This document shows, one piece after another, positions 19,795 through 53,190 of a stretch of 64,000 bases of DNA. Numbering within the stretch: position 1 is the first letter of the stretch; each line of letters starts with the position of its first letter. A program made the translations under genes and the position numbers. Source of the stretch: Membranipora membranacea (Eukaryota > Bryozoa > Gymnolaemata > Cheilostomatida > Membraniporidae); contig OU612069.1 of assembly GCA_914767715.1 (NCBI GenBank), positions 15,001,387-15,065,386 on the forward strand, given 5' to 3'. The notes under the pieces were generated by a model. That model ran no database searches, was not told the origin of the DNA, and saw only the letters and a program-made list of their open reading frames with translations.

Positions 19795-20481
19795 ACGAGA
19801 CAATTAAGGATGCTTGGTTGATCGCCATACAGCTAAACCCACACCTGATTAGGAGAGAAATAAAATGGATGAGTAACTGAAATCATGGAAGAAGGGTATA
19901 AGGGCAGCATATTATTAAACAGATTTCAGGTCTAACTCACTTAGTGAGGAAATATTTATTTAAGGTAAACTATAATTGCAGTTTATATTAGGCGACTCTA
20001 TCAATAAAAAATTCCATTTTGGTGCAGTATTCACTGCACAACTAGTATTAGGAGTAGGAGGTGGCTCAGTTGGTAAGAGCGCCGGTCCTGCAGCAGGTAA
20101 GTGATGAAGGTCGTGGATTCGAATCCCACTGCAGTCCATCGACCCCTGGAGTTTTTTTGGCCCCAAGGTGTGCTCAAACCTGCCTGCAAACTGAGAGCAA
20201 ACTGGCTCAGGCATTGCGGCCTAGCCCTTAAGGCAACTAAATTTTGCTGCGCATGCTTCGAGATATGGCGAGTGATATGACTTTCTGATTTAAATCAACT
20301 ATTTGATTTTAATCAACCATTTGTGGAAGTCCAATCAGATGACTTCCACCCACAGCCCCTACTAGATGTCTACTTCACTATGGCTGAGGAGGTTAAGCTG
20401 CTGCGCTAGGTGAATGGTCTGACCAAGCCTCCAATCATGCACCCACAGGTAAAGCACAATCATGCTGCTTCCAATGCTTGA
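19795..20481 (+). pseudogene. Broken MMACHC-like last exon with part of its intron, split by a SINE
   Basis: 19795-19980 resembles the last intron of the minus-strand MMACHC-like genes at 29.6-31.7 and 42.6-44.9 kb, and 19982-20049 the first third of their last exon (retained CAGTATTCACTGCA). After a SINE, 20321-20481 matches the rest (CCAATCAGATGACTTCCA, CTGACCAAGCCTCCAATC, down to GCTTGA at the stop). An in-frame TAG replaces the Trp codon in the LLSW motif. Intron sequence is present, so this is a genomic duplicate and not a processed copy. Exons 1-4 were not found. Confidence 0.85.
20050..20320 (+). mobile_element. tRNA-derived SINE (family 1) inside the MMACHC-like pseudogene exon
   Basis: Head GTGGCTCAGTTGGTAAGAGC (box A-like) and GGATTCGAATCCCACTGCAG (box B-like), then the shared body up to GACTTTCTGATTTAAATC. 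It sits exactly between the two halves of the exon. Flanking duplications are too short to call. Confidence 0.85.
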
Positions 20482-25729: not shown

Positions 25730-25918
25730 GAAATGACCATAGACCTACTAATAATAAACCTAGACAGGTGACAGATATAGAGCTTATACAGTGACCAGTG
25801 AGGCCTATAATAACTGGAATTTCCCAATGACACAACGATACTGTGTTGTGCACAGTGCATGCTGCAATGAATGGTTTTACTATATGAGCGTGACTGATTA
25901 TTAGGTATAATGGCATTA

Positions 25919-29200: not shown

Positions 29201-29560
29201 TTATTATATAGACAAACTCATACTTATTTGTATCATTCAATATTTTGTTATTGATTGAATGGATTAGACATTATAACCGGCACACAAAGCCCCTCATTGT
29301 TTTGAGCTGAATTGTATAGAAATTATCCTAAGATTCTACAAGCAAAGTACATTCATTTTTAAAAAAGGGTCACAGTTATGGGATTACCTCATTTCTATTT
29401 GCGAATCAAGTCCGTAGAGAAAAATAAGATAGGAGAAAACATGTTGAATATAAACCATTGAAAATGTTGTCATAAAAAAGTATCCTCTATTTAATTTATA
29501 TTCCTGTCAAGAGAGTGGTGACATTGGTAGTCGTCATATGATACCTTGCATCCGGTACGC

Positions 29561-31148
29561 TCAAGCATTGAAAGCAGCATGATTGTGCTCAACCTGTGGA
29601 TGGGTGATTGGAGGCTTGGTCAGACCATTGACCCAGCTCAGAAGCATTATCTTCTCTGCCTCAGTGAAGTAAACGTCTATTGGGGGCTGAGGATGGAAGT
29701 CATCTGATTGGAGGTCTTCAAATACTAGCACTGCAGTGAATACTGTACCAAGACGGAAGTCGTTGTTGATTGAGACGCCAAATATGGTCTACAATCACAA
29801 TAAACCTTTATTTAACAAAGCATTAAACATAATTTCCTCACTAAGTGAATTTGACCTGATATCTGTTTACCAATATGGTGACTCTGTACACTTATTACAG
29901 TTTCAGTTACCTATCCATTGTAATTCAGTTACCAATCAATTGAATTTCCAGCCTAATCAGCCACGGACCTACCTGGATGGCAGTCAACCAAAAAAGCCTT
30001 AAATGTCTTGGTATCTTTGTTTTGGTGAGAAATCTTATGACAAAATAAATGAACTTCCTGACAATAACTCATTTAATGTGATCTGTTGCTCTGATAATAG
30101 TCCAATTGATTAGAATTGATGCCACAAATTCGAATCTGACAAATATAAGATGAAGTTCCACATACTTTTCCGTCCCATGTAGTTGGAGGCGCTGTGACTT
30201 GTGTCTTTTGGTAGTAAAATGCATTCCCTGATGCATTTCCTGCAGTTTGAACATGGCAAACCGGAAGTTTAGTAGATGGATTTATCTCATTGGCTCCAAT
30301 GTATCTGATCTTGAAGGAACAGAATTTCTACAACAGTGTAATCAAATTGAAAAGAATTGCCTTTGAATATCAACAAAAGATGGAAGAATGTTTCGTTCCC
30401 TGCCATAAAATCGTTATGACATTGTGAAATGCATCTAGATTACCATATTAGCGATAACCTATATTTCTGCCTACCAAATGGTATGCGTCCTTGGTATAGG
30501 TAGTATTCAATAGCCAACAGTTCACAGAGCTTGTCTAACCTTGTACCACAGGGAAAAATTGTTATGAGCAAACTGATTGTTGTGTATTGTAGCTGCCAGC
30601 TGTCCAGACATGTTTGTTAAATAAAGTGACCAATTATTGAATATTCAAAGTATTGAGCGCTAGTCAAAACGCTGAAGTAACTAATGATTTTAAATCGCAT
30701 TAAATATGACGTGTTATGTTACTAAATTAACCTAGAGCCCTACATTATAAAACCAATCAACAAGCCAATAGACCAACCTGTTTAATATTGGCAAATTCAG
30801 TTTGAAACGCTTTGACGGCCTCCATGAATTCTTTGTACTGTACAGAGTTATATGTCACCGTGAAAGCTAAGGTGTTATCTGGGTAGTCTAGTTCCATCTT
30901 TTCACCTGTGCTGCCCGGATAGTTTGTGGTCACTTGTGTGTTGTAATCTCCTATCTAAAAAGGAGGCAGGGTGTAAGGATCAGTTGACTTCAACTGCACG
31001 CTATAGCATCTCCTAAGGAGCATAGAGTTCCGTAAATATTCTCTAGAAAACTAAATACCCAAGTTCTCAGTGATTTTGTAGGGAACGAAATCCACAAATT
31101 GTTCATGGAAATATGGAGACATTTGCCCTAAATTACAACAGCAGCATC

Positions 31149-31204
<56 letters not shown>

Positions 31205-31676
31205 CCACAACAACCACAACATCAGCATAAACGTCGGACAATGACCATGACATTGACATTAACATACATGCGGGCGGCAGTTCATACTTTCAAACCTACA
31301 TTGTGATTCCAGACTTTCAATACACACAGACACATTGGTACAATGACAGCAAACAGCCAATATTATAAAATCATTTTATGATCATGTCCTACCTTGAAAG
31401 CAGATGCTTGCATTCCAACCTCTTCTGACCTAGAAATGAACACGAACAAAAAAATGTTTGTAAACGAGGGATCAGTCTGTCAATAGGAAACCCTTCACGC
31501 CAATATGTTGTTCAAATTTGTGTCAAAGGAGTGTCTATGAGTTTTAGCAAAAAATCAGACCTAAAATCAATAACGAAGGAGCAAACAGATTTTCAATCGA
31601 GTCAGGTAACAAATTAAAGTTGCCAATGACCATACCTCTGCTGAACGTAGTCGATGATTTCTTTGACATCTGTCAT
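29561..31676 (-). CDS. MMACHC-like (CblC family) protein, minus-strand copy 1
   Basis: Five exons: 31676-31636, 31429-31393, 30954-30778, 30327-30166 and 29788-29561 (TGA); about 214 aa, starting MTDVKEII. Family assignment rests on an ordered match to MMACHC: VGMQASAFKIGDYN (human GFEVYPFQVAWYN region), NTLAF (PTLAF), VQTAGNASGNAFYYQ (QTAAHVAGAAYYYQ), FGVSI (SGVCI) and TEAEKIMLLSW (TRADRIALLEG). MMACHC binds cobalamin and removes its upper ligand with flavin or glutathione in the cytosol. No signal peptide. Human His122 is Asn here (residue 116), Arg161 is not kept, and the chain ends before human Arg206, so chemistry may differ. The frame upstream of the ATG stays open and is conserved in the partner copy, so the true start is not certain. 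Confidence 0.85.
31148..31204. repeat. (CAA)19 microsatellite in intron 2
   Basis: Nineteen perfect CAA units. The equivalent intron of the block 2 copy (about 44219-44260) has only scattered CAA/ACAAC units, so the array expanded after the block duplication. Confidence 0.9.
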
Positions 31677-31766
31677 GCTTTTGCCTTTTCTATCACAGTG
31701 AAAACTTGAACCTGCGAAGTCCTGACTGTTTGACTGATAAATGATCACAACAGAGTAACAGCCTGA

Positions 31767-31773
31767 CTTTATA
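31767..31773 (-). promoter_or_regulatory. Probable TATA box of minus-strand MMACHC-like copy 1
   Basis: Minus-strand TATAAAG in the context TTCATATAAAG, about 90 bp upstream of the chosen ATG. The same motif at the same place precedes the block 2 copy. A start site about 30 bp downstream would give a 5' UTR of roughly 60 nt. Confidence 0.55.
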
Positions 31774-34700
31774 TGAAGGTCACACTACACCACGAGGAAG
31801 TGGCAGGCATGACAAATCGTTATTATGGTCATACTGCTATTAGATGTTGTAAAGACATTATATTGCTCAACGACTTCCTTGAATAGAGTTTGTTATTATT
31901 GAATTTTTGCATAGTATCGATCAAAGCTGTTGTTTTGCTGCGCATTAGTGATGAAGCATTTCATGCAATTCTATGGAAGAATTTTTTTATCATTGATTTT
32001 ACTGGTCATACTTTTAGCCCATAATACGAGCAGTCTTTTGATAATAAAATAATAGCATTCATAAAATTCCACGAAAATCATTTGTTATTGATTTTACAGA
32101 GCATACTTTTAGTCCATATGTTATGATAACTAAATGATAGTATTCTTATATTCCATGAAAAACATTGATTGTTTTTTTGTAACTAATACCCCAGCAGTAG
32201 TTGTTGAAATTTACCAAAACGAAAATGTCTAAGCACTGGTTAATCTACACCTAATGGAAGTTAAATGAATACATTTGATGTGTACATAACACTGTCTTGA
32301 ACAGCTTGAGCGTAATCTCATTACACGAGGATTGAAAAGCAGAAAACTGTGTACGGTATACTTAAAAGCAGCAATTTTTTCCGTTCTGTGTTGTCTGACA
32401 TGCCTCGGAAAAAATTTATGCAATACATTTTGAGCAAGTTGCATATGATCTTGCAAAATCCACTGATGATACACAGCAGCAACAAAATTCCTTGAAGCCT
32501 GACAAGATGACCTGTTTTTTATAATTGCTTCCTCATAGCTTTCCTAATATGGAACGCCATTTATTGTGATAACGCTCTGAAAAAATATGGGTCATATAAA
32601 TCGTGCAGCCTGTCAAATCTAGCTACGCTACGTTGTGATGTAACTCAAATTATTATGACACACATTTTGCAAAGGTTCAGAGAAATATTGCAAAATAGAT
32701 ATCCCTTGTCAGTAAGTAGGGGGGAGGGACACTTGTGTTCAAGTTTGCTTCCTTATTGATCTACTAATAAGGGAACGCCTGTTTTATATTTATAACACAG
32801 ATGTACTTTATATAAAAGAATAAGGTCACAAACAAGCGAATATATGTCACATTGCAACACTAGAATGTGGCATATAACTCAAAAATCATGCCATGCGTGT
32901 GAGAACAGAATTCATGATGTGTTGTAACTAAGGCGATGATGACACTTATTCTGCAACAGTGTCAGGGTAAATAGAATAACAGACAATATATTTGCAAAAG
33001 TGTCGATCTAGATAGCAACAAAATCTGTTTGGGATTGCATAAATCTTACAAAACAAAAATTGACTGGTATAACCCTATTCTTTGTTTTACTAGAAGGATG
33101 TCTGTGTTTAAATCTCCTTACTAGTAGCACTCCTAATAAGGAACACATGTTTTACATAAGTGAACTTTTTGTGAGGCATTGTCATGTGATTGTCTGCCAA
33201 ATAAAATGGTGTATATATTTAATAAGAATGTCAAAATTGGTAGAATCACATATCAAATAAATTGGCTGCCAATATAAAAATAGGTCATGTTTCAGGGAGA
33301 AAAGAACAACAGGCAATTTTATTTGTAAAAGTGAATGGTCCTAGTTGTCTGCATAAGATCGAACAAGATGCACTGTATTAGTTGATTATCATGCCACCAA
33401 TAAAAGTAGGTCACGTTGTGATGAAATAAAGATGATCCATGTTGAATGACTGATATCCTAAGTACCAGTGCCATTAGTACCCTAATACATTTTTAACACT
33501 GTAAGAGGTGGCGGAGATATTTTGCAAGCCATTGATTGAGAAACTGAATAACAGGATAAATATATGATCATCTAATTGTTTTTATTGGTTCTGCCTCTTT
33601 TATTGGACCCGCAAATCATTCCGTTCCGCAGCTGCTGCGAGAGGGGGAGGTGATTTTGCAACAGGACAGGATGCAGCTCTGAATTTTTTCTCAAAATGCT
33701 GTATTGTGGTTATGATTATATCTTACTATTAAATACCATCAATGATTAGTCAATTGCAAGGTCATATCACTTGCCACATCTCAATGAATTAGCAACACGA
33801 TTGCAGTTAAAATCGGCAAAAGCTTGCACTACTTCTCAATCGTTTCACTCTCAGTTTGTAGGCAGGTATAAGCAGAATGGAGCAAGTCAGAGTAAATCTG
33901 GGGCCAAAAAAACCACTAAGGCAATGGACCGCAAATGTGAGACAAAACCGGAACCCCCTGTCACTTCCTCACAGATAGGCCCGGAGCTCTAACAATTGAC
34001 TGATATCCTACTCCTAGTCAATTCATCATCATCACTGTTGAAATAGCGGTTGGCAGGTCAGTTTATACTGAGAAGATAGGAATTTGAAGGATTCTAATTA
34101 TTAATGCAAAGTCAGATTACAATCTAAAACTAGATGTCGATTGCTTACAGTTCACTTAAAGGGTCTCACAATATTGAATCATCAACATTGTTTTTAAATA
34201 ATGTTTGTCTTAGAGAAAATTCATTGAAACAAAACCAATTATTCGGTTTTGTCAAAAATGGATGATATCAGAATACATTTTGTGATGGTTGTTGTTGACA
34301 TTAAATGAGCCTTATTAGTGTGCGATAATCTGGTAGTTCAGGGATGGACCTAGACAGGGCACCCTGCTCATAACAGCTTCAATATCCTTCAGCAAACGAT
34401 TTTCTATATACCACAATTTGAGGACAGGACAGATTTAATAAGACATGTATTTCTCTCAAGATTCCATTTTTTTCAAAGGACAGAATGTAAGCAGGCAGAA
34501 CAACTTAGTAACAAAACAAGTAGATGTAATTTGTATTCTATTCAAAGATGGTATGTCAACAATTTTATTTAAGATAAAGGCTGTTACTTCAGGATCATCT
34601 AGACCAATAATACCGGGCTCTCCCTTTCTGTCTACGCCCCTGCAAGGCTGCTCAATATAGATTTGGTCAATAAATCATACTATCGAAATAATCGTAAGAT

Positions 34701-34887
34701 CCTTGTTGAGGACAAATTGAGCGGTCAACAAAATGTATGCAATAAATCATGTGTCCTGTCGCAATCCATGTGTGACAGGGTACACGCTGAAATATATTAT
34801 TAAAGCTTTTGCCGTTTAAGATAATCGTCAGTTTTAATTTGACAGTTCAGCGGGATAAACTGTGTCTCATCTCTGATCACTGTACCA
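31774..34887. other. Divergent intergenic region, MMACHC-like pair 1
   Basis: About 3.1 kb between the two divergent genes, corresponding block by block to 45035-48431. It contains the old SINE near 33.75-34.02 kb and no coding segment. Just upstream of the plus-strand gene, a short block (GTCAGTTTTAATTTGACAG) is also found before the block 2 gene (GTCAGTTTCAATTTGACGA), a candidate shared promoter element. Confidence 0.5.
33740..34020 (-). mobile_element. Old tRNA-derived SINE, shared by both blocks
   Basis: Diverged reverse copy with GCTTGCACTAC, TAGGCAGGTATAAGCAGAAT and the tRNA-like head near 33990-34010 (CTCTAACAATTGACTGATAT). The equivalent copy lies at 47.33-47.55 kb at the matching position of block 2, so the insertion predates the block duplication. 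Confidence 0.7.
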
Positions 34888-37800
34888 ATGGCAAAATTCA
34901 TCATTGCGATCTTCTCACTAGCCTTGTGTGTATTAGGTAAGTACATCATGTAGCTGTGTATGTGTAAATGTTTACGCTGTATTGTTTTACTGTACAGTGG
35001 ATAATCATTGGCAGTTTAGTTCTGGTCTGCTTGTCTATTTTGATGTCTTCGACTGTTGCCTTAGCCTTGTCACGCGGCTGCTTTTCTGTTTTTTAGCCGC
35101 CTGAAAAGGCGACGGTTGCCTATTGGTTGTTCATAAGTGTTGTCTACTTGTGTTGCCTATTTTCTTGTCTTTTACTATTGTCTATGGTTGATGTCTATTT
35201 TGTTGCCAACTTTTACATTGTCTATCTATTTGGGTGGGTGTTGATGTATTCTGATTCGGTATTCTTTATTGATATTTCTCTCATTTGCAGTTACAGAAGC
35301 TAATAGCCTAGGACAGTGTCCATCTAAGTTGCCTGCAAGCCGTTCAAGACCCAGGTGGTGTTTATCTGAAGATCGGTGTCCAGGATCTCAAAAATGTTGC
35401 GGTAAGTTGCATATGAACTCGGCAACTTATATTCCTGCTGCAAGACTGTCCCAAAAGAAAGGACAAGGATCACATAAAAACGAGGCGCCAGTGTCAGCCT
35501 GAACCGCTTCCTACGAGCTTTCAAACTGTAAATTGATTGATTGATTGATCTATATCCAAAACCCTTTGGATTGCATTTGACCAATGACAAACCAACCCTT
35601 ACTATCCTATCAAAGTTACTGGCACATAAAATTTATGATATGCAGTCTTCCACAAGAACAAGATAATTTCACCATATGAGTGTATCCCATGTATGTTGTG
35701 AGCAACATTCAATTGAAAACTCCATATAAATTATTGCATCCGTACAAGGTTCTCCTCAAGAACCTTTCCACGTGTGATCTTGCAACTTTGCCAATAATAG
35801 TGCATCTACATGAGTTGGCGGAAAAAATATTATGGCTTCAATTGCGGATCAAAGATCTTTAAAATGGTATGGGATATGCCTCAAATGGTTGGTTTCATCG
35901 CCTTAATAGCTCACCTCCTTGATTATTTATGGTGTCCCGTTAAAATGAATCAAAAGAATCTTGTATTTTCATGTTACCCTAAAACTTCTTTCTCTTCCAA
36001 CAGCTTTTGGGGACCATGGCTGGAAGAGATGTGTTGATGCAGTTCTTTCTCCCTGGTAAGAATAATTTAATACTCATTACTTTATAAGAAATGTAAACTC
36101 ACCAGAGACAGCCAATATAATCAACTATCTCTGGTTACACACTCAAATAAGGGTCTTGCCGTAGATTGCCAAAGCCTTTCAACACGATAATGTTATGAAA
36201 CAGTCAATTCCCTTACAACACAATGCAATTTTTTATTGCAGAGTTGTGGTTTAAATTACTATTTTGTGGTGTAGTGGTTGTAATGCAGTCTTAATAAGGA
36301 ACCTAGGGGTTGTCATAAGGGGAAGATGTACATAAATGAGCACTCTTGACTAACGCAAATCCCATCAACGTATGACCAGAGTGTTAAAGGGTAAATTACA
36401 TTGTTACATTCCGCATGATTATGTGTACATGATGAATAACTCAACAGCTGACTAGAAGGTGTTTGTTGCAAGTTTTTTTGTCCCTCTATGTAAGCTATAG
36501 TATACCCCTTAGTCTGATGAATCATGGCAAACAACAGTTTTCAATCCTCGCCATTATGGTGAGGTGATAGGAATCTAGGGCTATAGGAGAAGAAGGAACA
36601 TAGGTCTAGAAGAGGACAGCATAATCTCATGACCCAAATACATTTTATTCCTGTTCCAAAATAGACTTCTTTTGAAGATTACAATCCAGTATGGGAGGCA
36701 TTCCACCAGCCAGCCTAATGTAGCCATGCATATTTAAATTGATGACTAATGTGTGTTCAATGGACTGGCAAAACCAATGATTGTAACATCGGAGAGCGCA
36801 AAATTTCCTGGTAGGCGTGATTGAAAATGTGCCAAGATGATGACAAAACTAAACCCGCAAACAACTGATACACAAACACCGGCACAGCCATGTAAATCGT
36901 TATCAAATTACCAAGAAATCTTGCAGTATCTGCCAAGTTCCTCATCACGTAGCAGCTGTTATGCAATACCGTACATTACTGTACCAGTTTCAAGACACCC
37001 CAAGATAATATAAATCTTTTCAATTGTAGCTCAACTAATGTGCAGCAGATCATCCAAATTGTGAAGCAACAGTAAGTACCATATTGATAAACCCCCCCCC
37101 CCCCTGCAACAACAAAGCATTGAACTATGAGCTCAATGATATTTTGGATATATGAGTGAGTGCCTAGAAACTGAGCTTAAATTTGTCATACATGATAACA
37201 TATAACAAACATTATCGCTTGGCCTGCACATCAGTCTCTTGGTGATTTGTTTTCGGACTTCAAGGATCAGCCAATGAGTTGCGTTGTTCTGATCGGTTGT
37301 TGGACGGGGAAAGAGAAACAATGCAAGGTCAACGAACGTGCCCATTGAGATGAAGTGAAGGCTGTTTCATGATTTAGCAGATTTTTATAAGGATGGTATG
37401 TCCTGATACCAGATTCCAGTTTGATGATGTCATAGACGCTATTTATATAGTAAAGTCAAATTGATGGCAGTAAAATGATCACAACGTCCTTAGGATTAAG
37501 CTGTTGGGGGAATTTGTTTGATCAAAGTCGTTGTGAGATGAGACCAGCTCATAACAACAATTTGTGGTTTTTTTTTCAAGGTCAAATATGGTTGGGATGC
37601 AAGCTGCAGCGTTCAATGTAAGAGAAGGTTGAGTGCTTATATCATTATAAGCAGAAGGGTTAGATATTTGTTATCATTGATGTTATTAACGATATATTCA
37701 CATGCTAGATCCATTGATATAAAATACTATTGAATTATTTATTGATGTTTGTTATATCAGCGTTTGATTCAATTGGCGTGTTAAGAATGCAAAATACTTT

Positions 37801-39355
37801 ACTCCTGTAGGGTTACTGACATATCTTTTTCTTTTCTTTTCCTAGGTAGGAGAATACAACTCGCAGGTTTCCGTCAACTTCCCTGATGAAAGAGGACAGA
37901 AACTGCAGCTCCCAAATCCAGACAACACATTAGCATTTACAATCACCTACAACTCAGAGCAGTATGGAAAGTTCTCAGAGGCTGTTGCTGCTTTTGCACC
38001 AAAGTTTGCTGAGATTGAACAGGTTTGTGTTTGACTTTTTCCTGGGTAGGGATTTTCCTCAATCCTTGATGATTGTTCCATGAAATCTGATATAAATAGA
38101 CGAGAAAAATAAGAGGCATTTCGAGATTCTGAACTGACAGTTTATTGCTAAGATCGCAACAATCATCAGCGGAATGCTGAACTCTGGATCCTTGTACATT
38201 CAACCACAGCTATTACAATCCTATCAATTGATCAGTGCCAGGCATTTGATGGCCATTTAATGACCATTATCAAGTAGAAAAAGTTAAACTTAATGTTAGT
38301 TAGATTTGTGTGCAATACTCAAAACTATAAGTATTTAAATGATCCATTCTCAGTGATAAGAGCGGTGCCAGGAAGAGCATGCCGCTCTCTTACTACATCA
38401 GTGGAAAAACCTGTTAAAACTAGGCAGGATGGCAACTGTAAACAAGCGTGAGTTTTCAATCTTGTCGATATTATTTATTTGCAGTTGTTCAGTTGCCACC
38501 AAATAAGATACATAGGTGGTAACGATTTCAACACGACCATAATGTTACCAACTGTTCATATACAGACAGCTGCCCATGCTTCTGGGAATGCTTTCTACTA
38601 CCAGAGAACTCAAGTCACCAATCCTCCATCTACATGGGACGGACAGGTAAGGCCTCTTTTTTTAAATAAATGAGAAAAAAAAATTATATTTATGAAGATG
38701 ATAGGGGTAGAGACCATCACCCAAGACAGTTCTCCCCTTTGGACTCAAAGCTGCAACTCCTATGGTACCTAAAGCATGCAAATGAATGGTCCATTCAGCT
38801 AATATAAAATAAATTTGTTACACCAATGACATCAATGAATCAGAACACATTGCTCAACAGTCCCCACTATTTTCTTTAGAACTTCACAGTAGAGATATTT
38901 ACTGGGGAATAGCAGCAGCGTTGTCAAATCTTATGCTGCACCTAAATTTAAGCATTGCTATTGTAGAAGGAGTTAGATCCTTGTATTGACAATGTCTAAT
39001 GAGGTGGACCAAAAAGTTGATAGACTATATCAGTCAGAATAAAGGCGATATTTGGCACCCATCATATAGTTAGAGTTAACTCCTTGTATTTACCTTGTCC
39101 CATTGCATAGCTTGAGCGTAACACTGTTAGTGTAATTTGTGATTGCAGACCATCTTTGGCGTTTCAATCAACAAAGATTTCCGTCTTGGAACAGTATTCA
39201 CTGCAGTACTAGTTTTTGAGGACGTCCAATCAGATGCTTTCCATCCACAACCACCAGTAGATGTGTACTTCACTGAAGCAGAGAAGATTATGTTGCTGAG
39301 TTGGATTAATGGTCTGGCCAAGCCTCCGTTTGTGGCCACAGATCATGAAGCATAA
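34888..39355 (+). CDS. Secreted WAP-like + MMACHC-like (CblC family) fusion, plus-strand copy 1
   Basis: Eight exons in phase: 34888-34936, 35291-35401, 36004-36055, 37030-37071, 37581-37617, 37846-38022, 38485-38646 and 39149-39355 (TAA); about 278 aa. MAKFIIAIFSLALCVLG is a clear signal peptide. Exons 2-4 form a WAP-like module (C1-P-x12-C-x5-CPGSQKCC-x10-C-x8-C) with seven of the eight usual cysteines. From exon 4 (TNVQQIIQIV) the protein aligns with the cytosolic copies and shares their 37-, 177- and 162-nt exons: NTLAF, HIQTAAHASGNAFYYQ (His187 and Gln196 match human His122 and Gln131), FGVSI, TEAEKIMLLSW. The human Arg161 position and the C-terminal region are not kept. Predicted extracellular cobalamin or flavin binder; untested. 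A polyadenylation signal lies at 39591. Confidence 0.87.
37092..37104. repeat. Poly-C run of 13
   Basis: Homopolymer in intron 4 of the plus-strand copy 1, absent from the matching intron of copy 2. Confidence 0.9.
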
Positions 39356-42300
39356 AAAGCTTATGTATTATATGAGAATTTTAATCACTGACATAAGATA
39401 AACATATGAACATAACGAACCAATAATTTTGTAATAATTATCCACCGTCAACGGGTTCAAATATAGATATCTAATATGTTGATAATTAATTGAATTTTGC
39501 TGTATGCATTTATATACTATAAGTATACAAATTCTGCAAATTACCTTTACATCCGGAAAACGTTCCGCTACTGGAATGAAAGAGACTGTCAATAAAAGTG
39601 TTAAAAAAAATATTCAAAATAAAGTAAAATCCCTGATAAAAAGATTGAAGTTACAAAAATAAATTTTGCCTTTTTTTTTTATTCACTTGTTAAATGTTTC
39701 TGTTGACATATTAAGCAGGCCATAAATCGATTCCTGTTCAAACCTCCATGCTGTTTTTTTTGTAAAAATTGAGGTCTTCCAATGAATCTTTAAACTATCA
39801 TCTTGTAACAGTCTAGGTTGGATTGATGAAAGTGATGATTATGGTAAGAAATCCCAGAAGACAAAAGGTCATACAGGTTTGTTGGGGTTGTGGTTAAAGT
39901 GTCCTCCCATCTAACTACAAACTTTCTATTTTTATTGCAACCACCATTTCTTCTACTTTTTTTTGTGGATTAGATGAGCAATATGACATCTCGATTTCAA
40001 CTACCATCATCATAGGTTTCCAAAGCTAAAGTCAAAGTCTAGAGTCTAAAGGATTAATTATTATTACTATGTTGTGGATGAATTAATGTTAGCCTGCACT
40101 AAACTGAGATGAAGTTTAAAAATTGTAACAAGGGTGGGTGAATTTTAGCTAGCCTTAAAGTAGCAGACAACCACAAAAGTTATATTTTGACATTTAATGT
40201 GCAATGATGTACTCTGTCTAAACTGGGATTTTATAGATAAATATCAAATTGGAAATTTTAATTATGACCATTACAAACTGTTTTCCACTATTTTGTTTTA
40301 GTAACACAAATACCCATAGATCTCAAAATGAATATATAATTAGAAAATAATGATGTATATAGGAATTTGTTTTAGAATCGAAGCAGTTAACTTTTGTTAG
40401 TGTCAATCTTAATACATAAACAGTCATCTCCGTTACAAAATCATCTACAAAAACAATATTATTGCTTTCAATAACAAAAATAAAGCATTGATCATTGAGA
40501 TAATAAAGTAAACAAAACATAGTTTCTCAATTTAATTAAGTTTATTGCAGCCTGGGGCTGCTGACTGCCCTGTGGTGCAGAACCAAAGCTTATACCTTGA
40601 AATTTCGTTGTTGAGCATATTGCCTACTGGTGAAGGTTAATCGCTTCATGGTTGGTATTCAGTGGTGCCAGGGTTTAGTGCTACTTAAAATTGGCTATTC
40701 CAAACCTATGCAAAATATTTAACTTTTCCTTCTATGAAATTTTTGTTTTCTAGGGTAACAGTAACACAAAACCAGTCACATGATTAGGGGATATCGGGCC
40801 AGATTTTATGGTCAGGGACAATAAAAATGTATATTTTGATCAATGTTGATAGATCGACAGTAGTAACTTTACTGTTTGATTTAGTCGCCTCAGTTGGTAA
40901 TTGAGAGCAAAACAGCATGAAAACTGGTCCTATTACACTAAGCGGTAGCCCGTTACGAGTCAGTTGCGATATCTTACGGGCTCTAGTCATTGCTATATCC
41001 ATTCAAATTTTCAACAGCACGAGCTGTCTTTGACTATACCGGGGACATAGCGCAGAGTATGGTGATTTTAAAACATAACTCAACCCCTCTGCTGGATGCG
41101 CAAAAACTAACCACTGATTATGTCAAAACCATGACCCATAACAAAATGGCAAGCTGCCACAAAAACCACAAAGGTCCCAATGAACACATAAGAGTGTGGA
41201 GGTGATTGATATTTGAAAAGTTCTAAAAAAAAGCTAGTGCTAATCAAGGTTTATTCCCACACAACTTTGCGAGTATCTTGTTACCACATAACTATACAGA
41301 CAGATCCAATCAATGAGCCCAACCAATTATGTCTGATACGGTAGAGGAGAATTGTTTATGAATGGTTTGTCCATGAAACATAATCCTTCATAAATACTCA
41401 ACCATATCGGAGTTAACTGCTCTTGCTCAGAGAGAGAATAACTTTACCTTAATCTGGTAAAATTATGTAGCCGGATAATCCAAATTACCCTATCATATTT
41501 CATGTGTACTGTACTTCAAACACATTAGAGAGTACAACTCAATCATCATAAATAGCATATATTGCATTTCCTGATATCCTTGACCCAACAATAGTATATT
41601 TAAGAGGTGCAGCTGTCTGAAATACAAAATGTCAATCGCTTAGCTTCTTTCAATTCCACAGGCTTCATTACGTGGGAGGAAGTTATTTCACAACCTTACA
41701 TCAACAACTCATACTGCCGAACCAGCTGTGCCCACAAACCACCGCACTGCGCACGGAGTCTTTGTGTCTGTCGATGGGTAGCAAATACTTCTGTTACTGA
41801 TATTATACTTTATGTTATAATAAAGCTATAAAAAAATATGTATAGGTTTTATTGTTGTAACTAGATTAATAGATCCTATTGTAGTGTCCAGTTCAATAAA
41901 ATATGGTCACTTTAAAAGACATTATGACGTTATGCCAAGACTAAACATATTTATAAATCAGTGTGTCCAATTTTGAAAAATTAGTTTGTAAATTTTTTAA
42001 CTTTCTACCTGCATATTAGCAACAAAAACTAAAACCTATGTCACTCTGCTGTTGCCTTCAATCTGCTTAGAATAAGATGAGATGACTGCGCGTATCATTC
42101 TCAATCTCACCTCAACAGCTACATGGACCGGACCCAATAATAGTATTACCATTTTTACTTTTTAAAAGACTTTTACTTGGCTAGTGCTTGCAGACTCCCC
42201 TTCACGATTTCTTCTCTAGGGTACATAATTCATAAAAATAAAAGAATTGTGTCATTCAATTTTTGTTTTATTGACTGAAAGTATAAGACATTGTAACCAA

Positions 42301-42556
42301 CACACAAGGCGCTTTATTGTTTTGAGCAAAGCAATTAGCCTAAGATTCAACAAGCAAAGCACATTCATTTTATGCAAGGTAACAGTTGTGGGATTAATTT
42401 TATTTGCGAATCAAATCCGCAGAAAAACTAAGACAGGAAAGAACATGTCGAAAATAAACTGTTGAAATTTAGTTTGAAGTTGAAGTTTGAGAATCTCTGC
42501 CAAGGGAGTGGTGACATTGGTAGTCATCATTTGAAGATACCTTGCACCTGGTACGC
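39356..42556. other. Intergenic region between the two blocks
   Basis: Convergent 3' ends. AATAAA at 39591-39596 is a likely polyadenylation signal of the plus-strand gene. No further coding segment. 40370-40500 resembles 9240-9370 (a dispersed repeat of unknown type). The block boundary falls between about 41.75 and 42.24 kb. Confidence 0.5.
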
Positions 42557-44937
42557 TCAAGCATTGAAAGCAGCATGATTGTGCTCAACCTGTGGATGGG
42601 TGATTGGAGGCTTGGTCAGACCATTGACCCAGCTCAGCAACATTATCTTCTCAGCCTCAGTAAAGTACACATCTATTGGTGGCTGAGGATGGAAGGCATC
42701 TGATTGGATGTCTTCAAATACCAGTACTGCAGCAAATGCTGTACCAAGGCGGAATTTGTTGTTGATCGAGATCCCAAATATGTCCTACAATCACAAATAA
42801 CCATAATTAGACGTAATATCCTCACTAAGTGAATTAGACCTGATATAACAGATGGCGCCCCTATACCCATATATACTGATTTCAGGTAACCATACATTTC
42901 ATAAACCACCTAATCAGCAGTGGACCGAGCTGGATGGCTGTCAAACAAGCATCCTTAATTGTTTTTACATTGGTTTTGGTGAGGAATCCTTTTTTTTTAA
43001 ATCAACACTTCCTGATGTTTATATCATGTCATGTAACCTAATAGAAAAATAGATTTCAATTGATGTCATAAATAAAAAAAGATTTCCACATACATTCTCG
43101 CCCCATGTAGATGGATGCGCTGTGACTTGAGTCTCTTGGTAGTAAAATGCGCTCCCTGATGCATTTCCTGCAGTTTGAACATGGCAAACAGGAAGCTGAG
43201 TAGATGGATTTATCTCATTGGCAGGAATGTATCTGATCTTGGGAGTGCAGAATCGCTGCAACAGTGCAATTTAATTAGATTGTAAAAAAATTGCGTTAAA
43301 GTAGTATCAAATGATGAAACTTTTCATTCTGTTGCGACATTAAAAAGTGGCAATATTGAAATCCATCCAGACCATCTGACCAGAGATGATCTATTAAATA
43401 CAAAACATTGCGGTGTCTGGTAGCCCATCAGTTAATAACAGTCACCAAGCTTCTCTAACTTATTTTGAGCAAACACATATTGATCCTGACCCCTGCATTA
43501 GGAAACAATCGATAAGTTTCAATAAATAAGATAAGAAGCAATGGATAATCTCAAAAGATAAGAAACACTAGATAGTTTAAAATAGATATCTCTCATGTGT
43601 CAGTCAGGCGAAGGATGGCCATGACAAGTAGCCAACTTTGAATAAACTCAATAATTTGATCTAGTCAAGGGTTAAAAAAATTGTGTTCAAGGTCACTGAT
43701 GATTTGAAAGCAAATTGAAAATGAAGAACAAAGTTACCCTATTTACATACAGCTTAACATTATGATACTCAGGATATTATTTAAGTTATATACCCTCAAT
43801 CACTCTCAACAAGGCAATAGACCGACCTGTTTTATATTGGCAAATTCAGGTGCAAGCCCTTTGACGGCATCCATGAATTGTGGGTACTGTACAGAGTTGT
43901 ACGCCACCGTGAAAGCTAAGGTGTTATCAGGGTAGTCTAGTTTCATCTTTTCACCTGTGCCGTCCGGATAGTTGGTGGTGACTTGTGTGTTGTAATCTCC
44001 TATCTGAAAATGATGTAGTTTGTAATGAGCAGTTGACTTTAACTACACACTTTGGCCTTGCAATCATTGGACTAATCAATCCCCTAAACATAGGAGCGTA
44101 GAGTTTCCGTGTGGTTTCCCTTAAAAGCTCAATATTTGAGTTGTCAGTGATTTTGTGTGGTGCGAAATGCACTTACTGATCATTGATTTATGGACACCTC
44201 ATTACAAACCTTTCAACAGCAACACTATCAAAAACAACCACAACATCAGCATAAACAACAAAGTCAGTGATCATGGCATCAACAGATCGCTGCCCTAGGA
44301 TGCAAACATGCTAAATGATGAAATTCAAAAATTGACTTTTCAAATTTTTTACATAATATATTCACGAGTCCAATGTTACCAGAAATTGGAGGATGTATGA
44401 CGGTTTAAAATGCTAATTTAATCTCATTGAAGTTTCAACTTTGCATTGTCTTTTATAGAAATAGTCAAACAAAAGGCCAATTATTAGCGAGCTGCTTTGA
44501 CATTGCAATAACATTCATTTGGCAGTTTATACACATGATACAAACCTGCCACGTGATGCAAGACCTTCTATATACACCAACACATTGATTCAATAAAGTC
44601 TGCTAAATTTACAAAATAATTTGATGTTTGTACCTTACCTTGAAAGCAGATGCTTGCATTCCAATTTCTCCTGACCTAGAAAAGAAAATGAGTAAGTAAA
44701 TGATCTTAAGTAAGGTGTAAAAGAGGGGTCAGTCTGTTGAGAGGTAGCCTACAGAAGCATCTTCATGCCCAGATGTGACTAAATTGTTGTTTCAAAGAAG
44801 CATATGAGCTACAGCAAATAATCAAAACTAAAGTCAATGGAGCAAGCAGAATTACAATCAAGCCATGTAAGAAATTGAAGATGCTGAAAATCATACCTCT
44901 GCTGAACGTGCTCGATGATTTCTTTGACATCCGTCAT
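42557..44937 (-). CDS. MMACHC-like (CblC family) protein, minus-strand copy 2
   Basis: Five exons of the same lengths as copy 1: 44937-44897, 44675-44639, 44003-43827, 43255-43094 and 42784-42557 (TGA); about 214 aa. Core motifs are retained: IGMQASAFKIGDYN, NTLAFTVAYN, VQTAGNASGSAFYYQ, FGISI, TEAEKIMLLSWVNGL. As in copy 1, the residue matching human His122 is Asn, and the C-terminal extension of vertebrate MMACHC is missing. There is no signal peptide, so a cytosolic cobalamin-handling role is the default. The frame is intact throughout and most changes from copy 1 are conservative, which argues for a working gene. A TATA box lies at 45028-45034. Confidence 0.85.
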
Positions 44938-45027
44938 GCTTTTGCCTTTTCTATCAAAATGAAAACTGGAACCTGCAAAGTCCTCACTGTTTGACTGATA
45001 AATGATCACAACAGAGCAACGGCCTAG

Positions 45028-45034
45028 CTTTATA
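45028..45034 (-). promoter_or_regulatory. Probable TATA box of minus-strand MMACHC-like copy 2
   Basis: Minus-strand TATAAAG in TTCATATAAAG, about 95 bp upstream of the ATG, matching the motif at 31767-31773. Confidence 0.55.
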
Positions 45035-45713
45035 TGAATGTCACACTACTCCACAAGGAAGTAGCAAGCATGACACATTATTTTTATCAGTTGTTATGTT
45101 AGCAATTATTGTGGCAAACAATAGGTTATGATACCAGCGTTGATCGATTTTGACATCTAATATGCTGTTGGAAAGCTGCTGAGCTGCTGATCGCTAATAG
45201 CTCATCAAAAACGTGATTGGATGACGTTGCGTCATTTTATCGGAGAAATGAGGCCGAAAAGGCTGTTTTTACCAAAGTGGATGGCTGCGCTACATTGATT
45301 GCTAGAAAGATTGCTAAACAGGTTACATTCATTCTTAGAGGCATAGTTCATCCTAATTTTAGGTTGAAAATAATATTTGATAAGCCCAAAATGGCTTTTT
45401 ACGTCACGTCATAATGCGTGTGGTTTTTTAACATTGATGATATAATGCGAAATTTTAAGCAACGATTTGAGACAGACCAAATTTTTCGCTTTTCTCCACT
45501 ATATTGCTGTTTAAATGACACACACAACAAATTTCAGCAGTATATCTAATGTATCAATATCAGCATAGACTATCAAAGGTAGATACATTTTTCGCTATTT
45601 ATCAATAACGTCAAACATGCTGTCAAAAGGTCCAGCAAATTTATTTTGAAAATTCTCACATACGAAGCCGCTTTGATTACGCATAGTACAAACAGGAAAT
45701 GCCAACAGAATAT

Positions 45714-45842
45714 GGCACTATGTATTAGTCTTCCTCGAATTATACCACACAGAATGCCAAAAAACACCTTAAAACGCCCCTTAAATTGGCTGTTTTGGGC
45801 ATTCTGTGTGGTATAATTCGAGGAAAACTAATACATAGTGCC
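45714..45842. repeat. Inverted repeat, 45-bp arms with 39-bp loop
   Basis: GGCACTATGTATTAGTCTTC...AGAATGCC (45714-45758) is mirrored at 45798-45842 with very few mismatches. It is not present at the matching place of block 1, so it is probably a small foldback or MITE-type insertion. Confidence 0.85.
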
Positions 45843-47319
45843 TTTCACATCGGAGAGAATGCATGCAATACACTTTTAACAGATTGCATATATCTTGCGG
45901 AAGCTGACCCCACTGCTGATGCACAGCATAAAGAGAAAAACCTTGAAAAGCCTTAAAGAATGACCTGGTTGGATTTGTGCTCCCTCATAGCTTTCCTAAT
46001 ATGTAACTCCAATTTTAGTTGTGATAACACTCTAATGTACTCCTGTATGAAGCAATAATTTCATAAATAAGTACACACATGTCACATTGTAACAACAGAC
46101 GTAAAATTGCCAAAATATATCATGCCATAAAGATAAGCTAATATGTGACTATCTCATTATGACTACACACATTTTTTCCAGAGAGATGACTATTTTGAAT
46201 CGCCTGCGTATGGTTGAACAAGATAGCAATCGATATCTGTCATGGGATCGCTTATAAATAGAATAGAATTAGATAAATAAATCCCTTGTCAGTTAGGAGG
46301 GGGTGAGCAATTGTGTTTAAGTTTGCTTCTTCATTGCACTCCTAATAAGGGAACCCTGTTTTATATTAATGTCATTTATATTATATGTACTCTGCATGGA
46401 ACAATCATATCATATCTTATCAAACAAGTGATCACATGTTAGTCAAATATCGTGCAGCCTTGAAATTAATTTATGATGTGATGTAACTCTGGCGGAGATA
46501 TTTTGTAACATTTATTAAACTTTGCAAAATGAAAATCCAAACTTCTCTTGTAGCACTCCTAATAAGAGAAACTTTTTTGTGATGCATTTTTATGTGATTG
46601 TGCGCAAAATAAACTAGTGGCTAATAAGAATGTCAAAAACATGTTCAATCATTTATAACTCTAATTCATTTTCAACAGTGAATACATCGAAGGATATTTG
46701 CAAGTCATTGATTGAGAAACTGAATAACAGGATAAAGAAATAATCATGTAAATATGTTCATTTGTTCTGCGTTTTTGAACACACCTGCAAATAATTCCAT
46801 AATACAGCTGCTGTGAAGGGGATGGAGCTGGTTTTGCAACCGTAAAGGGATAGGATACAGCTCTGATTTTTTTGAAAATGCGGTGAGCATACATGACAAG
46901 TTGGTAGACCAAGAAATCAGGAGGTCTCCGCGGACGAACTCCCGACCCGGAGTTCCACTCTGCGCGTCCCGCAGTGAAGGTGCAATTTGGCCATTGTTGT
47001 CATTTGTTTTAAGCCAAAACTAGATCGTTCATATTATGAAATGCATAATTTTACCTGATTTTACAAATTATATTGTTGTACTTTATCCGAACGAGGAGAG
47101 ATGGTATGTTAATAGGCAATTATATCTAGGTATATGTACCGTGGGGGTAGAAAAACATAGTTTTTCTTGCAACAAGAAGCTTAAAAAGTCTTCTGGGTGA
47201 AGGAAGCTGAAAAAAGGGAGGAAAAGGGGAGATAAAGAGGAGGTAGAAAATACCCCTAAAAACTGGGAGGCTCCCTACCAAAATGGGTGACTTGTCAGGA
47301 ATGGCGGTGAGGTCAAAGC

Positions 47320-47550
47320 ACTCACCGCATCTAAATGAATGAGTAGCATTATAGTAGTTGAATTTGGGACAAGCTTGCACTACCTGAGTCAATCCACACT
47401 AAGTTTTTAGGCAGGTATGAGCAGAATGGATCAAGTCAGGGTAAATGGCCAATGGACCGGAAATAGAAAATCGAAACCGGGACCCCCATCCCTTCCTCAC
47501 TGAAAGGCCCGTAGCTCTAACCAGCTGACCCATATGCCACTCCTGATTAA
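47320..47550 (-). mobile_element. Old tRNA-derived SINE, block 2 counterpart
   Basis: Same diverged SINE as at 33.74-34.02 kb (AAGCTTGCACTAC, TAGGCAGGTATGAGCAGAAT, GGCCCGTAGCTCTAACCAGC), in the same place relative to the plus-strand gene. Confidence 0.7.
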
Positions 47551-48431: not shown

Positions 48432-51400
48432 ATGGCGAAATTCATCGTTGTGGTCTGCTCTCTAGCTTTGTGTGTATTAGGTAAGTACGGCATTGTGTAT
48501 GTGTAAGTGTAGCTGTTTTTCACTATTTTCTTTTGCTGTACCCTGGGTAATCGGGAGCCACTTTACTTTTAATCTAATTGTCTATTTTGATATTGATCTA
48601 GTACTGTTGTCGATTTAGATTCTATTATCGATGTTGATTTTGCTGCCTATTACAGTTGTCTATTGCTGTTTTCTATTGTGTTGCCTATTCTGTTGTTTTG
48701 ATGTTGTCAAGTTTTGCATTGTCAATCTATCTTATTTGGGTTTTGAAGTTCTGTTATTAGGAATTCTATACTGATATTTCCCTCTTTTGTAGTCACGGAA
48801 GCTAGTCCATCTAGTTTGCCTGCTTACAATTTGCGTCCAGCTTTGTGTAAATCCGACAGCCGGTGTCCAGGGTCTCAAAAATGTCGTGGTAAGTTGCATA
48901 TGAACTCGGCAACATTTATTTCCCCTTAAAAACATTTCCACACTGTCCCAAAGAAAGTGGGGATAAGTTCAAAACAACAAAGCTGTTCGATCCACTTGCA
49001 ATTGTACATTATGTTGCAACCTGTAAAAACGCCAGCTAACCTAACACTTTGCTAGTGAGTAAGAAAACTGCGCCATCTACAATTGTAAAGGTTATAATAA
49101 ATCTTCGCCTGCATCCAGAGCAACAGAAAAGTAAAACCTACAATGCATTAAAATTGTTTTCTGCTCAAGTACAACATTATTACAGAACAATGATTTTCAT
49201 CACATAAATGCATATGATGAAGGTTGTTCGCAACCTACATCAGATGCATTTATGTGATGAATATCATAAATGCATCTGATGTAGGTTGCGAACAACGTAC
49301 ATTTGCAAGCTCTATATCAATTATTGCATGCGTACTATGTCCTCCGCAAAATTCTCTCCCCGTGCAATTTTTTCAACTTAATAATGGTGATTCGTTACGA
49401 GTTGGCGGCAAGCAGAAACCTGTTTGGTCACAATTGCGGTTAAAAAAAACCTTAAAATTTTATGGGAATTGCATCAAACCAGTGGTTTCATCAGGCTCAT
49501 TTCTCACCTCTGTCATTTACAGTTTGCCATTTAGGTTTGTCAAAGCAAGCTTGTCTTTTATAATTACCCTACACTTTTCTGTTCCAACAGTTTTTGGGGA
49601 CCATAGCTGGAAGAGATGTGTTGATGCAGTGCTTCCTCCCTGTTCAGTAGGAGCCAGGTAAGAATGATTCAATAATGATTACTTTGTAATAAGTTTACAC
49701 TTAACAGGGACAGCCAATATGTTTAAATTTCTCTGGTGACTCACTCAAATAAGGGTCTTGAGTAACATACCGCAGATTTTGATTGTACATGTAAAAAGTG
49801 ATGTGAAATTTTACCAATCTGACTTTCACATGACGTGGAAAAGTCTTAGGAAGTAAATGACTTCTTGACAGATATGAGTAATTCCATTATGTAGGCATAC
49901 AATGGTAGGGTATGAAGAAAGCTAGAATAAATGGTCAGCTGTGAGGCCGTCCGTCCATTATTTATACCATATAGCATACTCTTTAGTCTAGGCATAGCAA
50001 ACCACATGTTTCAGTCCCTGCTCTGAATGGTTAAGTGATATGAAACTAGGACTAAGGTAAGAAGGTAATTTTGCATATTTAAATTTATGATTACAATAGA
50101 CAATCATCTGATAGTGCCAAAGTTCCTGGTAGGCGGGATCGAAAACATGCCAAAATGATGAGATAAACAACTAATACACAAACACCGGAAACAGCATCTG
50201 CCAAGTTTCCCGAAACGCAGCAGCTGTTATGCTAATCGGTAAATTATTGTACCAGCCTCAAATTACCCAAAGATAAACTATTTCTTTTCAATTGTAGTTC
50301 AACTAATGTATGGCAGATCATCCGAATTGTGAAGCGAAAGTAAGTGCAAATTGTTAACCCACAACACCAAAGCATTTTGTACTAGGAGCTCAGTGATATG
50401 CATAGCATGAGTGCCTAGATACTGAGCTTACTTTTGTCAAACATAGTTTTGGAACCACTCCCAAGAAAAATCACTCATCATTCTTTTGGTGATCTTGTAT
50501 TTGGACATTAAGGATCAGCCAATGTGTTGCGCTGATCTGATTGCTTAATGGACAGGAAAAAGAAACAACGCAAGGTCAACAAACATGCCCATTGAGATGA
50601 AGTGAAGAGTGTTTCAGATTTGCCATATATCACAAGGTACCTCAATGAAAGCACCAACCGACCTGATATTGGCTCTCACCCACCCACCAGCCAATCAGGG
50701 CCAATGCATTGTTCTCTCTCATCCACCAGCCAATCAGGGCCAGTATCTTGGCTAATGAAAGATTAACCTGCTGGCGATAGATTAGCCATGATTGAGCAGA
50801 CATTTATAAGGATGGTTTGTCCTGACATCAGTTTCCTGTTTAATGATGTCATCAGAAGCCATTTATCTCGTAAAAGTCAAATTGATGGCAGTGAAATGAT
50901 CACAACTCCCTGAAGATTAAAAAATTGAAAAGCCGAAAGTCGAAATTTATCTAACCATAAATCATCATGAGATGAAACCAGTGTATAACAACAAACTGTC
51001 GTTCTTATTTTCAAGGTCGGCTACGGTTGGGATGCAAGCTGCGGCGTTCAAGGTAAGAAGATGTTGAGTGCTAATATCATTATAAGCAGGAGGGTGAGAT
51101 GTTTGTTATCATTGATATGTAGTTAATGATAAATTCACATGCTTGACCCGTTGATATCAAATACTGAATACTGAAAATAATGAATTATTTATTGATGTTT
51201 GTTATATCAGTTTATCAGTTGGCAAATCCGAATACAAAATACTTTACTCCTTGAGGGTTACTGACATATCCTTTTTCTTTTCTTTACCAAGGTAGGAGAA
51301 TACAATTCTCAAGTTGCCGTCAACTTCCCTGATGAAAGAGGAAAGAAACTGCAGCTCCCAAATCCAGACAAAACATTAGCATTTACAATCACCTACAACT

Positions 51401-53190
51401 CAGAGCAGTATGGAAAGTTCTCAGAGGCTGTGGCTGCTTTTGCACCAAAGTTTGCTGAGATTGAACAGGTTTGTGTTTGACTTTTGACTGAGTAGGGATT
51501 TTCCTCAATCCTTGATGATTGTTCCATAAAATCTGATATAAATAGACGAGAAAAATAAGAGGCATTTCGAGATTCTGAACTGACAGTTTATTGCTAAGAT
51601 CGCAACAATCATCAGCGGAATGCTGAACTCTGGATCCTTGTACATTCAACCACAGCTATTACAATCCTATCAATTGATCAGTTCCAGGCATTTGATAGCC
51701 ATTTAATGACCATTATCAAGTAGAAAAAATTTAACCTTATGTTAGTTAGATTTGTGTGCAATATTAAAACTATAAGTATTAAAATGATCCATTCTCAGTG
51801 ATAAGAGTGGTGCCAGGAAGAGCATGCCGCTCTCTTACTACATCAGTGGAAAAACCTGTTAAAACTAGGCAGGATGGCAACTAAACAAGCGTGAGTTTTC
51901 AATCTTGTCGATATTATTTATTTGTAGTTGTTCAGTTGCCACCAAATAAGATACATAGGTGGTAACGATTTCAATACGACCATAATGTTACCAACTGTTC
52001 ATATACAGACGGCTGCCCATGCTTCTGGGAATGCTTTCTACTACCAGAGAACTCAAGTCACCAACCCTCCATCTACATGGGATGGACAGGTAAGGCCTCT
52101 TTTTTTTAAATAAATGAGAAGAAAAAATTATATTCATGAGGATTATAGGGGTAGGGACCATCCATACATGACAAGTTACCCTATATCATAGGGTAACACC
52201 AGATATATTGACTGATTACCCTATGAGACCAGATGACCCTACAACCACCCCACTTTTGCTGCTAAGAGCTAAGTGCAGTTTTATTTGCTTAGTCAGCAGT
52301 CATGAGGTCTAGTTTACAATCAATTATAACCAATTGCAGCTAGTTTAAACTTTTCACGTAATAATACTCTGTGTAACACTTGCTAGAATTTGGCAAATCA
52401 TGGTTTTCTCATAATAAAACAGCAGAATAACGAACATTTGGTGGCTTGGGTTCTACCCCATACCGCTGAAAGGAGGTTTTCAGGGTCCCCCAGACCAACC
52501 CAGCCCGCATGGTGCTGTACCACCAGATATGGAGTACAGCCAACTTGTCATGCATCACCCAAGACAGTTCTCCCCATTGGACTCAAAGCTGCAACTCTGT
52601 GGTATCTAAAGCATGCAAATGAATGGTCCATTCAGCTAAAATAATATAAATTTGTTACAGCAGCGACAAATTGAAGCAGGACAACAATGCTCAACAATCC
52701 CAATATTTTTTTAAAACTCCACAGTAGAGATTTTTACCGGGGAATGGCTGCAGCGTAATTGAATAAAATTCTGCACCCTAATTTAAGCATTGTTAATGAC
52801 CAAGGTGTAAGCTCCTCCCCTTCCTTGTCTCATCTAATGTGAGGGACTGAGAAAGATGATAAAAATATCAGTCAGAATACAGGTGATTTTTGGCCCCGAT
52901 CATATAATCAAAGTTAAATCCTTGTATCCTTGTCCGATTTCTTCGCTTGTGTGTAACTCGGTAACTTCAATTTGTGATTTCAGAACATCTTTGGGGTTTC
53001 GATCAACAACGATTTCCGTCTTGGTACAGTATTCACTGCTGTACTAGTATTTGAGGATGTCCAATCAGATGACTTCCACCCACCACCGCCAGTAGACGTG
53101 TACTTTACTGAGGCCGAGAAGATTATGCTGCTGAGCTGGATTAATGGTCTGGCCAAGCCTCCGTTTGTGGCCACAGATCACGAAGCTTAA
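48432..53190 (+). CDS. Secreted WAP-like + MMACHC-like (CblC family) fusion, plus-strand copy 2
   Basis: Eight exons: 48432-48480, 48793-48888, 49591-49657, 50298-50339, 51016-51052, 51292-51468, 51928-52089 and 52984-53190 (TAA); about 278 aa. Signal peptide MAKFIVVVCSLALCVLG. The WAP-like module is reduced: relative to copy 1 the first cysteine is Ser and the second of the CC pair is Arg (CPGSQKCRG), leaving five. The MMACHC-like core is intact and very close to copy 1: FPDERGKKLQLPNPDKTLAF, HIQTAAHASGNAFYYQ with the His matching human His122, FGVSI, TEAEKIMLLSW. Exon 3 is 15 nt longer than in copy 1 and exon 2 is 15 nt shorter, so the total length is unchanged. A likely polyadenylation signal is at 53214. 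Predicted extracellular; function inferred from the family only. Confidence 0.87.
49223..49296. repeat. Perfect 32-bp inverted repeat with 10-bp loop, in intron 2
   Basis: GTTGTTCGCAACCTACATCA...TTTATG (49223-49254) and its exact reverse complement (49265-49296). Part of the same sequence (ATAAATGCATATGATGAAGG) precedes it at 49204. Absent from the matching intron of block 1. Confidence 0.9.
52164..52552. mobile_element. MITE-like insertion of about 390 bp in intron 7
   Basis: Block 1 reads ACCATCACCCAAGACAG straight through, while block 2 has about 390 bp between ACCATC and CATCACCCAAG. The insert starts CATACATGACAAGTT and ends AACTTGTCATG, short terminal inverted repeats, with CATC as a possible target duplication. 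It has no coding potential. Confidence 0.75.

Follow-up and report, generated by a model that had tools for sequence, protein, structure and literature searches.

Background

Can the fold of MMACHC (CblC), an intracellular enzyme of vitamin B12 processing, be sent outside the cell, and if so, in what form and to what end? This question is raised by a gene, hereafter gene 1, in a 64,000-nucleotide stretch of chromosome 5 of the bryozoan Membranipora membranacea (C5:15001387-15065386, plus strand; below, "the window", in whose coordinates positions are given unless stated otherwise). A preliminary description, made from the letters of the window, had proposed that the gene joins a signal peptide and a WAP module to a full MMACHC-like core, and that it arose by the placing of secretory exons ahead of a cytosolic gene. 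Here, we report that gene 1 and its tandem copy, gene 2, are predicted to encode a secreted protein made of a signal peptide, a reduced WAP module and a CblC-fold core, which has been trimmed of the glutathione pocket and of most of the C-terminal cap. In the open-access literature we found no paper joining bryozoa and MMACHC and nothing on secreted MMACHC among the best-ranked matches, while a search for "whey acidic protein" together with MMACHC returned only a case report of Kallmann syndrome.

Results

Architecture of the predicted fusion gene

Gene 1 comprises eight coding exons (Table 1), separated by seven introns that all conform to the GT-AG rule and read as a single frame of 278 residues, with exons 2-8 entered in phases 1, 1, 2, 2, 0, 0 and 0. 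The exons named in the preliminary description (the signal-peptide exon, the WAP exons, the STNVQQIIQIVKQQ exon and those of the core) were all recovered, and its claim that leader, WAP and MMACHC-related core belong to one gene is supported by the frame, the splice sites and the existence of a duplicate. The leader reaches a hydropathy maximum of 3.10 over 12 residues, and that of gene 2 is likewise hydrophobic. The WAP family (PF00095) matches residues 24-65 of gene 1 with an E-value of 2.3e-5 (25 bits, cut-off 20.8), and the MMACHC family (PF16690) matches residues 90-264 with 1.1e-19 (71.3 bits, cut-off 27; 72.9 bits for gene 2), so the likeness to MMACHC first read from the letters holds against the curated profile. 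Among solved structures, those of human MMACHC (1.3e-7) and of a C. elegans protein (4.6e-5) are matched by gene 1. The core is not a full one, however, as had been thought: the match stops at profile position 179 of 216, leaving about 37 positions absent, and ends approximately at human residue 197, beyond which an unrelated tail of 14 residues follows.

The eight cysteines of a WAP module pair as I-VI, II-VII, III-V and IV-VIII. In gene 1, according to the numbering that we take to apply, six of the eight are kept (II and VII are absent), with the spacing C-x5-C-x5-CC, and in gene 2 only four, I and VI being absent as well. With this pairing, the losses would have removed whole pairs and left three of the four disulfides possible in gene 1 and two of the four in gene 2. 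A cysteine-rich gene on chromosome 11 (L040:2217-3108, minus strand) also combines a hydrophobic start with a C-terminal six-cysteine WAP module of the gene 1 type.

A duplicated cassette and constraint between the copies

Gene 1 stands head to head with a paralogue, A, and this cassette is repeated as paralogue B and gene 2, the two cassettes being arranged head to tail. The synonymous divergence (dS) is similar for both pairs (0.239 for A and B, 0.287 for genes 1 and 2). Gene 2 repeats the eight exons in the order and frame of gene 1 and has an open frame of the same length, with 15-base in-frame indels between the copies in exons 2 and 3.

The identity of the two genes is 85.7% in exon 1 and 92.3% in exon 3, compared to 62.9-68.8% in introns 1-3. 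To measure constraint, the same base changes were placed at random and the resulting amino-acid changes counted. The WAP part carries 13 amino-acid changes against 19.4 expected (P 0.0008), and 77% of the random placements create a stop; residues 1-98 taken together gave P 0.0018, while neither the signal peptide alone (P 0.47) nor exons 4-5 alone (P 0.26) gave a significant result. Because the tandem copy repeats the exon order and frame, the indels stay in frame and the WAP part has fewer changes than at random, the architecture is beyond chance. The ratio of nonsynonymous to synonymous divergence (dN/dS) of genes 1 and 2 is 0.07 for the core and 0.47 for the WAP part, which favours a role for the core. 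In exons 6-7 and intron 6 the identity rises to 96-97.5%, and the region 37368-38718 as a whole is about 90% identical to 50787-52162, including intron 6 (97%), which exceeds the identity of the upstream introns; recent gene conversion around exons 6-7 and intron 6 is likely.

Table 1. Features of the two cassettes and a further remnant in the window
Feature	Position	Strand	Remarks
Gene 1 exon 1	34888..34936	+	signal peptide MAKFIIAIFSLALCVL; duplicate at 48432
Gene 1 exon 2	35291..35401	+	WAP part 1 (presumed cysteines I, III, IV, V, VI)
Gene 1 exon 3	36004..36055	+	WAP part 2, presumed cysteine VIII; end falls within C71 codon
Gene 1 exon 4	37030..37071	+	STNVQQIIQIVKQQ, N-terminal stretch of core; no ATG of its own
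Gene 1 exon 5	37581..37617	+	
Gene 1 exon 6	37846..38022	+	MMACHC-like core
Gene 1 exon 7	38485..38646	+	core with QTAAHASGNAFYYQR (H187 = human H122) and C160
Gene 1 exon 8	39149..39355	+	core end; T228 at R161 position
Gene 2 exon 1	48432..48480	+	signal peptide
Gene 2 exon 2	48793..48888	+	WAP part 1, without presumed cysteines I and VI
Gene 2 exon 3	49591..49657	+	WAP part 2
Gene 2 exon 4	50298..50339	+	
Gene 2 exon 5	51016..51052	+	
Gene 2 exon 6	51292..51468	+	
Gene 2 exon 7	51928..52089	+	
Gene 2 exon 8	52984..53190	+	stop TAA at 53188-53190
Paralogue A	29561..31676	-	214 aa, 5 exons, no signal peptide, N at H122 position
Paralogue A exons	31676-31636, 31429-31393, 30954-30778, 30327-30166, 29788-29561	-	
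Paralogue B	42557..44937	-	214 aa, 5 exons, no signal peptide, N at H122 position
Paralogue B exons	44937-44897, 44675-44639, 44003-43827, 43255-43094, 42784-42557	-	
Cassette 1	29228..39838		A (minus) and gene 1 (plus), head to head; from self-comparison
Cassette 2	42247-53583		B and gene 2; duplicate of cassette 1, collinear in pieces
Broken exon-8 fragment	19985..20439	+	interrupted by a stop; left over from a further copy

Relatives and the probable order of events

A gene on chromosome 6 (C6:17967773-17973038) encodes, in six exons, a protein of 227 residues, in which a leader stands directly ahead of the core and there is no WAP module. A public protein, P0001, equals its product at 226 of 227 residues and comes from a spliced transcript, since its longest source contig is 1293 bases and the gene spans 5266. 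A candidate for a signal-peptide form of MMACHC outside this genome, which the preliminary description had suggested looking for, is P0002 of Watersipora subatra (228 residues, hydrophobic leader by hydropathy, trimmed core, no WAP). The canonical MMACHC of M. membranacea is encoded on chromosome 3 (C3:19595269-19597411; 243 residues, 257.9 bits, profile positions 1-216), and MMADHC, which partners MMACHC in handling B12 within the cell, is also present, with two exons above the PF10229 cut-off at C4:32980283-32981069.

In a tree of 15 rows (omitting P0001, which is the same as the chromosome-6 model, and P0003, P0005, P0006 and P0014), nine canonical sequences stand apart from a clade (100/100) made up of the chromosome-6 protein, the protein from Watersipora and the four copies in the window. 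Those four copies have a branch of their own inside this clade (100/100), with A joined to B (96/97) and gene 1 to gene 2 (94/90), while the branching order of the chromosome-6 and Watersipora proteins is not settled by the tree; the chromosome-3 row forms a long branch. One of the omitted proteins, P0003 (from ENA), is an open frame of 146 residues that shares 84% identity with the last exon of gene 1 but has a longer C-terminus, and apparently comes from unspliced DNA of a relative.

The four leader-bearing proteins share one cysteine just ahead of the core (C71, C66, C25 and C24 in gene 1, gene 2, chromosome-6 and Watersipora proteins, respectively) and another where the exon-7 region begins (C160, C160, C113 and C114). 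The chromosome-6 and Watersipora proteins contain no other cysteines; the pair could form a disulfide linking the leader to the core. The pre-core cysteine is absent from A and B. The codon of the first cysteine is interrupted by a phase-2 intron in gene 1; in the chromosome-6 gene such an intron interrupts the codon after it. Because leader-core proteins without WAP share the cysteine and, in the chromosome-6 gene, the intron beside it, and the tree places A and B with the fusion genes, a secreted ancestor is favoured, and the earlier suggestion that secretory exons were placed ahead of a cytosolic gene is not. Probably, judging from these sequences, the bryozoan paralogue clade was already secreted and disulfide-stabilised before it met WAP; the WAP exons would have been inserted later, in the Membranipora lineage, between the signal peptide and the core, and A and B would have lost secretion. 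Two independent gains of secretion would cost as many steps.

What the core has kept and lost

The positions of human H122 and G147 are both kept in gene 1 (H187 and G214). Across the six members of the trimmed clade G147 is invariant, and the H122 position holds histidine in all four leader-bearing proteins and asparagine in A and B. The position of R161, on the other hand, is replaced in every one of them (T, T, T, A, A and G in genes 1, 2, A, B, chromosome-6 and Watersipora, respectively). The tails past the position of human N197 comprise, in the same order, 14, 14, 21, 21, 5 and 4 residues, and contain just one arginine, residue 201 in the chromosome-6 protein; that of gene 1 has none. 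Human residues 203-238 have no detectable counterpart in the trimmed core. Together with R206 and R230, R161 lines the glutathione pocket of MMACHC (PMC10740964). None of the three has a counterpart in gene 1, while the canonical chromosome-3 protein retains matching residues at all three. The four-helix cap (human residues 185-234), which forms part of the cobalamin pocket of human MMACHC (PMC4705923), is incomplete in gene 1, and only its first part remains in the trimmed clade. The predicted model of P0001 shows the nitroreductase-like fold of MMACHC, with a match that spans human residues 4-202.

Discussion

Comparison with known systems

With respect to MMACHC/CblC of human and C. elegans, the fusion proteins have a leader, a WAP module and an extra cysteine pair, and lack counterparts of R161, R206 and R230 and most of the cap; a cytosolic location is at odds with the hydrophobic leader that hydropathy reveals in both genes. 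They resemble the Watersipora protein P0002, annotated as "cyanocobalamin reductase / alkylcobalamin dealkylase-like", in the trimmed core, leader, cysteine pair and lack of R161. Unlike them, P0002 has no WAP and more closely resembles the chromosome-6 paralogue (it is 50% identical to P0001). MMADHC/CblD is intracellular and has no WAP, and its family PF10229 is not among the Pfam matches of gene 1. Gene 1 resembles the WAP four-disulfide-core proteins in exceeding the Pfam cut-off of that module, and differs from them in its fusion to a CblC-fold core. The transcobalamin/intrinsic factor family PF01122 does not appear among the three Pfam families that gene 1 matches with E-values up to 10; a search of the genome for the same family gave no match, but neither did any of 14 controls, so it has no bearing on the presence of the standard carrier.

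Possible functions

We consider it rather probable that gene 1 encodes a secreted protein with a reduced WAP module and a trimmed CblC-fold core that acts outside the cell by binding a ligand or partner. Without the three pocket arginines, the core should not carry out glutathione-dependent dealkylation. The nitroreductase-like core would most likely bind a ligand or partner extracellularly, with a corrinoid or a flavin as the first candidates, and the WAP module would stabilise or anchor it. Several observations weigh against this view. The signal peptides were assessed by hydropathy alone, the WAP module of gene 2 scores 17.6 bits and thus falls below the Pfam cut-off, and the identity of exon 2 between the copies (70.8%) barely exceeds that of the introns. 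The folded protein was P0001 and not the spliced WAP fusion, and the fold match came from a second-look structural aligner. In MMADHC the cap and the protrusions are absent, which is held to explain its failure to bind cobalamin (PMC4705923), and by analogy the same non-binding may apply to the trimmed core. Finally, a search with the full fusion protein among about 5.8 billion proteins (E up to 1, 1157 candidates) found the WAP form neither as a transcript nor as a protein, a weak negative in that such a search can miss identical proteins (a profile search did not return P0001, although it was part of the query), and no WAP was present among 11 sequences inspected from profile searches that returned 14 and 2 proteins. 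The splice between exons 3 and 4 therefore rests on the frame, the splice sites and the duplicate.

It is conceivable, though we would not bet on it, that the core has been re-used for protein-protein interaction or as a structural element, as was proposed for MMADHC, and that the WAP module is the active part, in protease inhibition, in the matrix or as an antimicrobial. The loss of the cap parallels MMADHC (PMC4705923), and WAP modules are common in this genome, with 123 or more matches when E-values up to 1 are admitted; it is the core, however, that shows the stronger conservation in the dN/dS comparison, and the loss of a further cysteine pair in gene 2 also indicates that WAP is not the most constrained part. 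We regard as more tentative the proposal of an extracellular protein that captures corrinoids, as a carrier or to withhold them from microbes. The histidine and glycine kept in all four leader-bearing proteins speak for such a B12 binder, as does the fold match of the P0001 model. The human G147D variant loses cobalamin binding and R161Q keeps binding of hydroxocobalamin (PMC2923755), and hence the loss of R161 alone need not abolish binding, but a later calorimetric study found the affinity of R161Q to be reduced for all three cobalamins tested (PMC13320084). A complex of CblD with thiolato-cobalamin (PDB 6x8z, by its title) suggests that a cap-poor relative can meet cobalamin; against this stands the missing counterpart of human residues 203-238, as the cap lines the pocket (PMC4705923). 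Capture of B12 and a role limited to protein binding or structure seem about equally likely.

One gene or two

Exons 1-3 of the proposed fusion could also form a gene of their own for a small secreted WAP protein, followed downstream by an independent core gene, an explanation that we find improbable. In both copies, unspliced exon 3 would run into a stop just past its donor, one AATAAA/ATTAAA signal lies within intron 3 of gene 2, and the fusion transcript is missing from the searches described above. Intron 3 of gene 1, however, contains neither AATAAA nor ATTAAA. Read backwards from exon 4, the frame reaches a stop (81 and 66 bases away in genes 1 and 2) without passing an ATG, so this exon must be entered by splicing, or else the core starts inside exon 5. 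Its acceptor has 10 and 13 pyrimidines of 17 in the two copies (other exons, 8-17), while A and B, which do start at that place, have 4 and 5 of 17 there, but also an ATG and, 97 bases ahead of it, a shared TATAAA. Moreover, the phases of exons 3 and 4 match in both copies, and the chromosome-6 paralogue splices its signal exon to the matching place. That the genes are decaying pseudogenes of a tandem cluster, as the broken exon-8 fragment and the low WAP score of gene 2 might suggest, is very improbable in view of two open frames of 278 residues and the low dN/dS of the core.

Other features of the window

The window also contains a palindrome of 292 bases with 94% self-complementarity (25917-26208), a long open frame with an NHL repeat (23543-24526, minus strand) and a pair of related open frames rich in cysteine (10422-10799 on the minus strand, 16275-16739 on the plus strand) with no Pfam match at E up to 0.01. 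Long simple-repeat tracts lie at 9658-10330 and 31128-31289, the latter inside an intron of paralogue A.

Conclusions

A bolder and, in our opinion, doubtful extension would be that bryozoans have made of the CblC fold a family of extracellular corrinoid binders that is not related to transcobalamin, haptocorrin or intrinsic factor, to which one lineage added WAP in order to hold or guard B12 at the body surface or in the gut. A secreted clade without the glutathione pocket would show that the CblC fold has been re-used extracellularly, and its natural truncations could help to define the part of the cap in cobalamin binding. Such a clade would also allow a direct test of the idea that a second type of extracellular B12 binder has evolved in animals.
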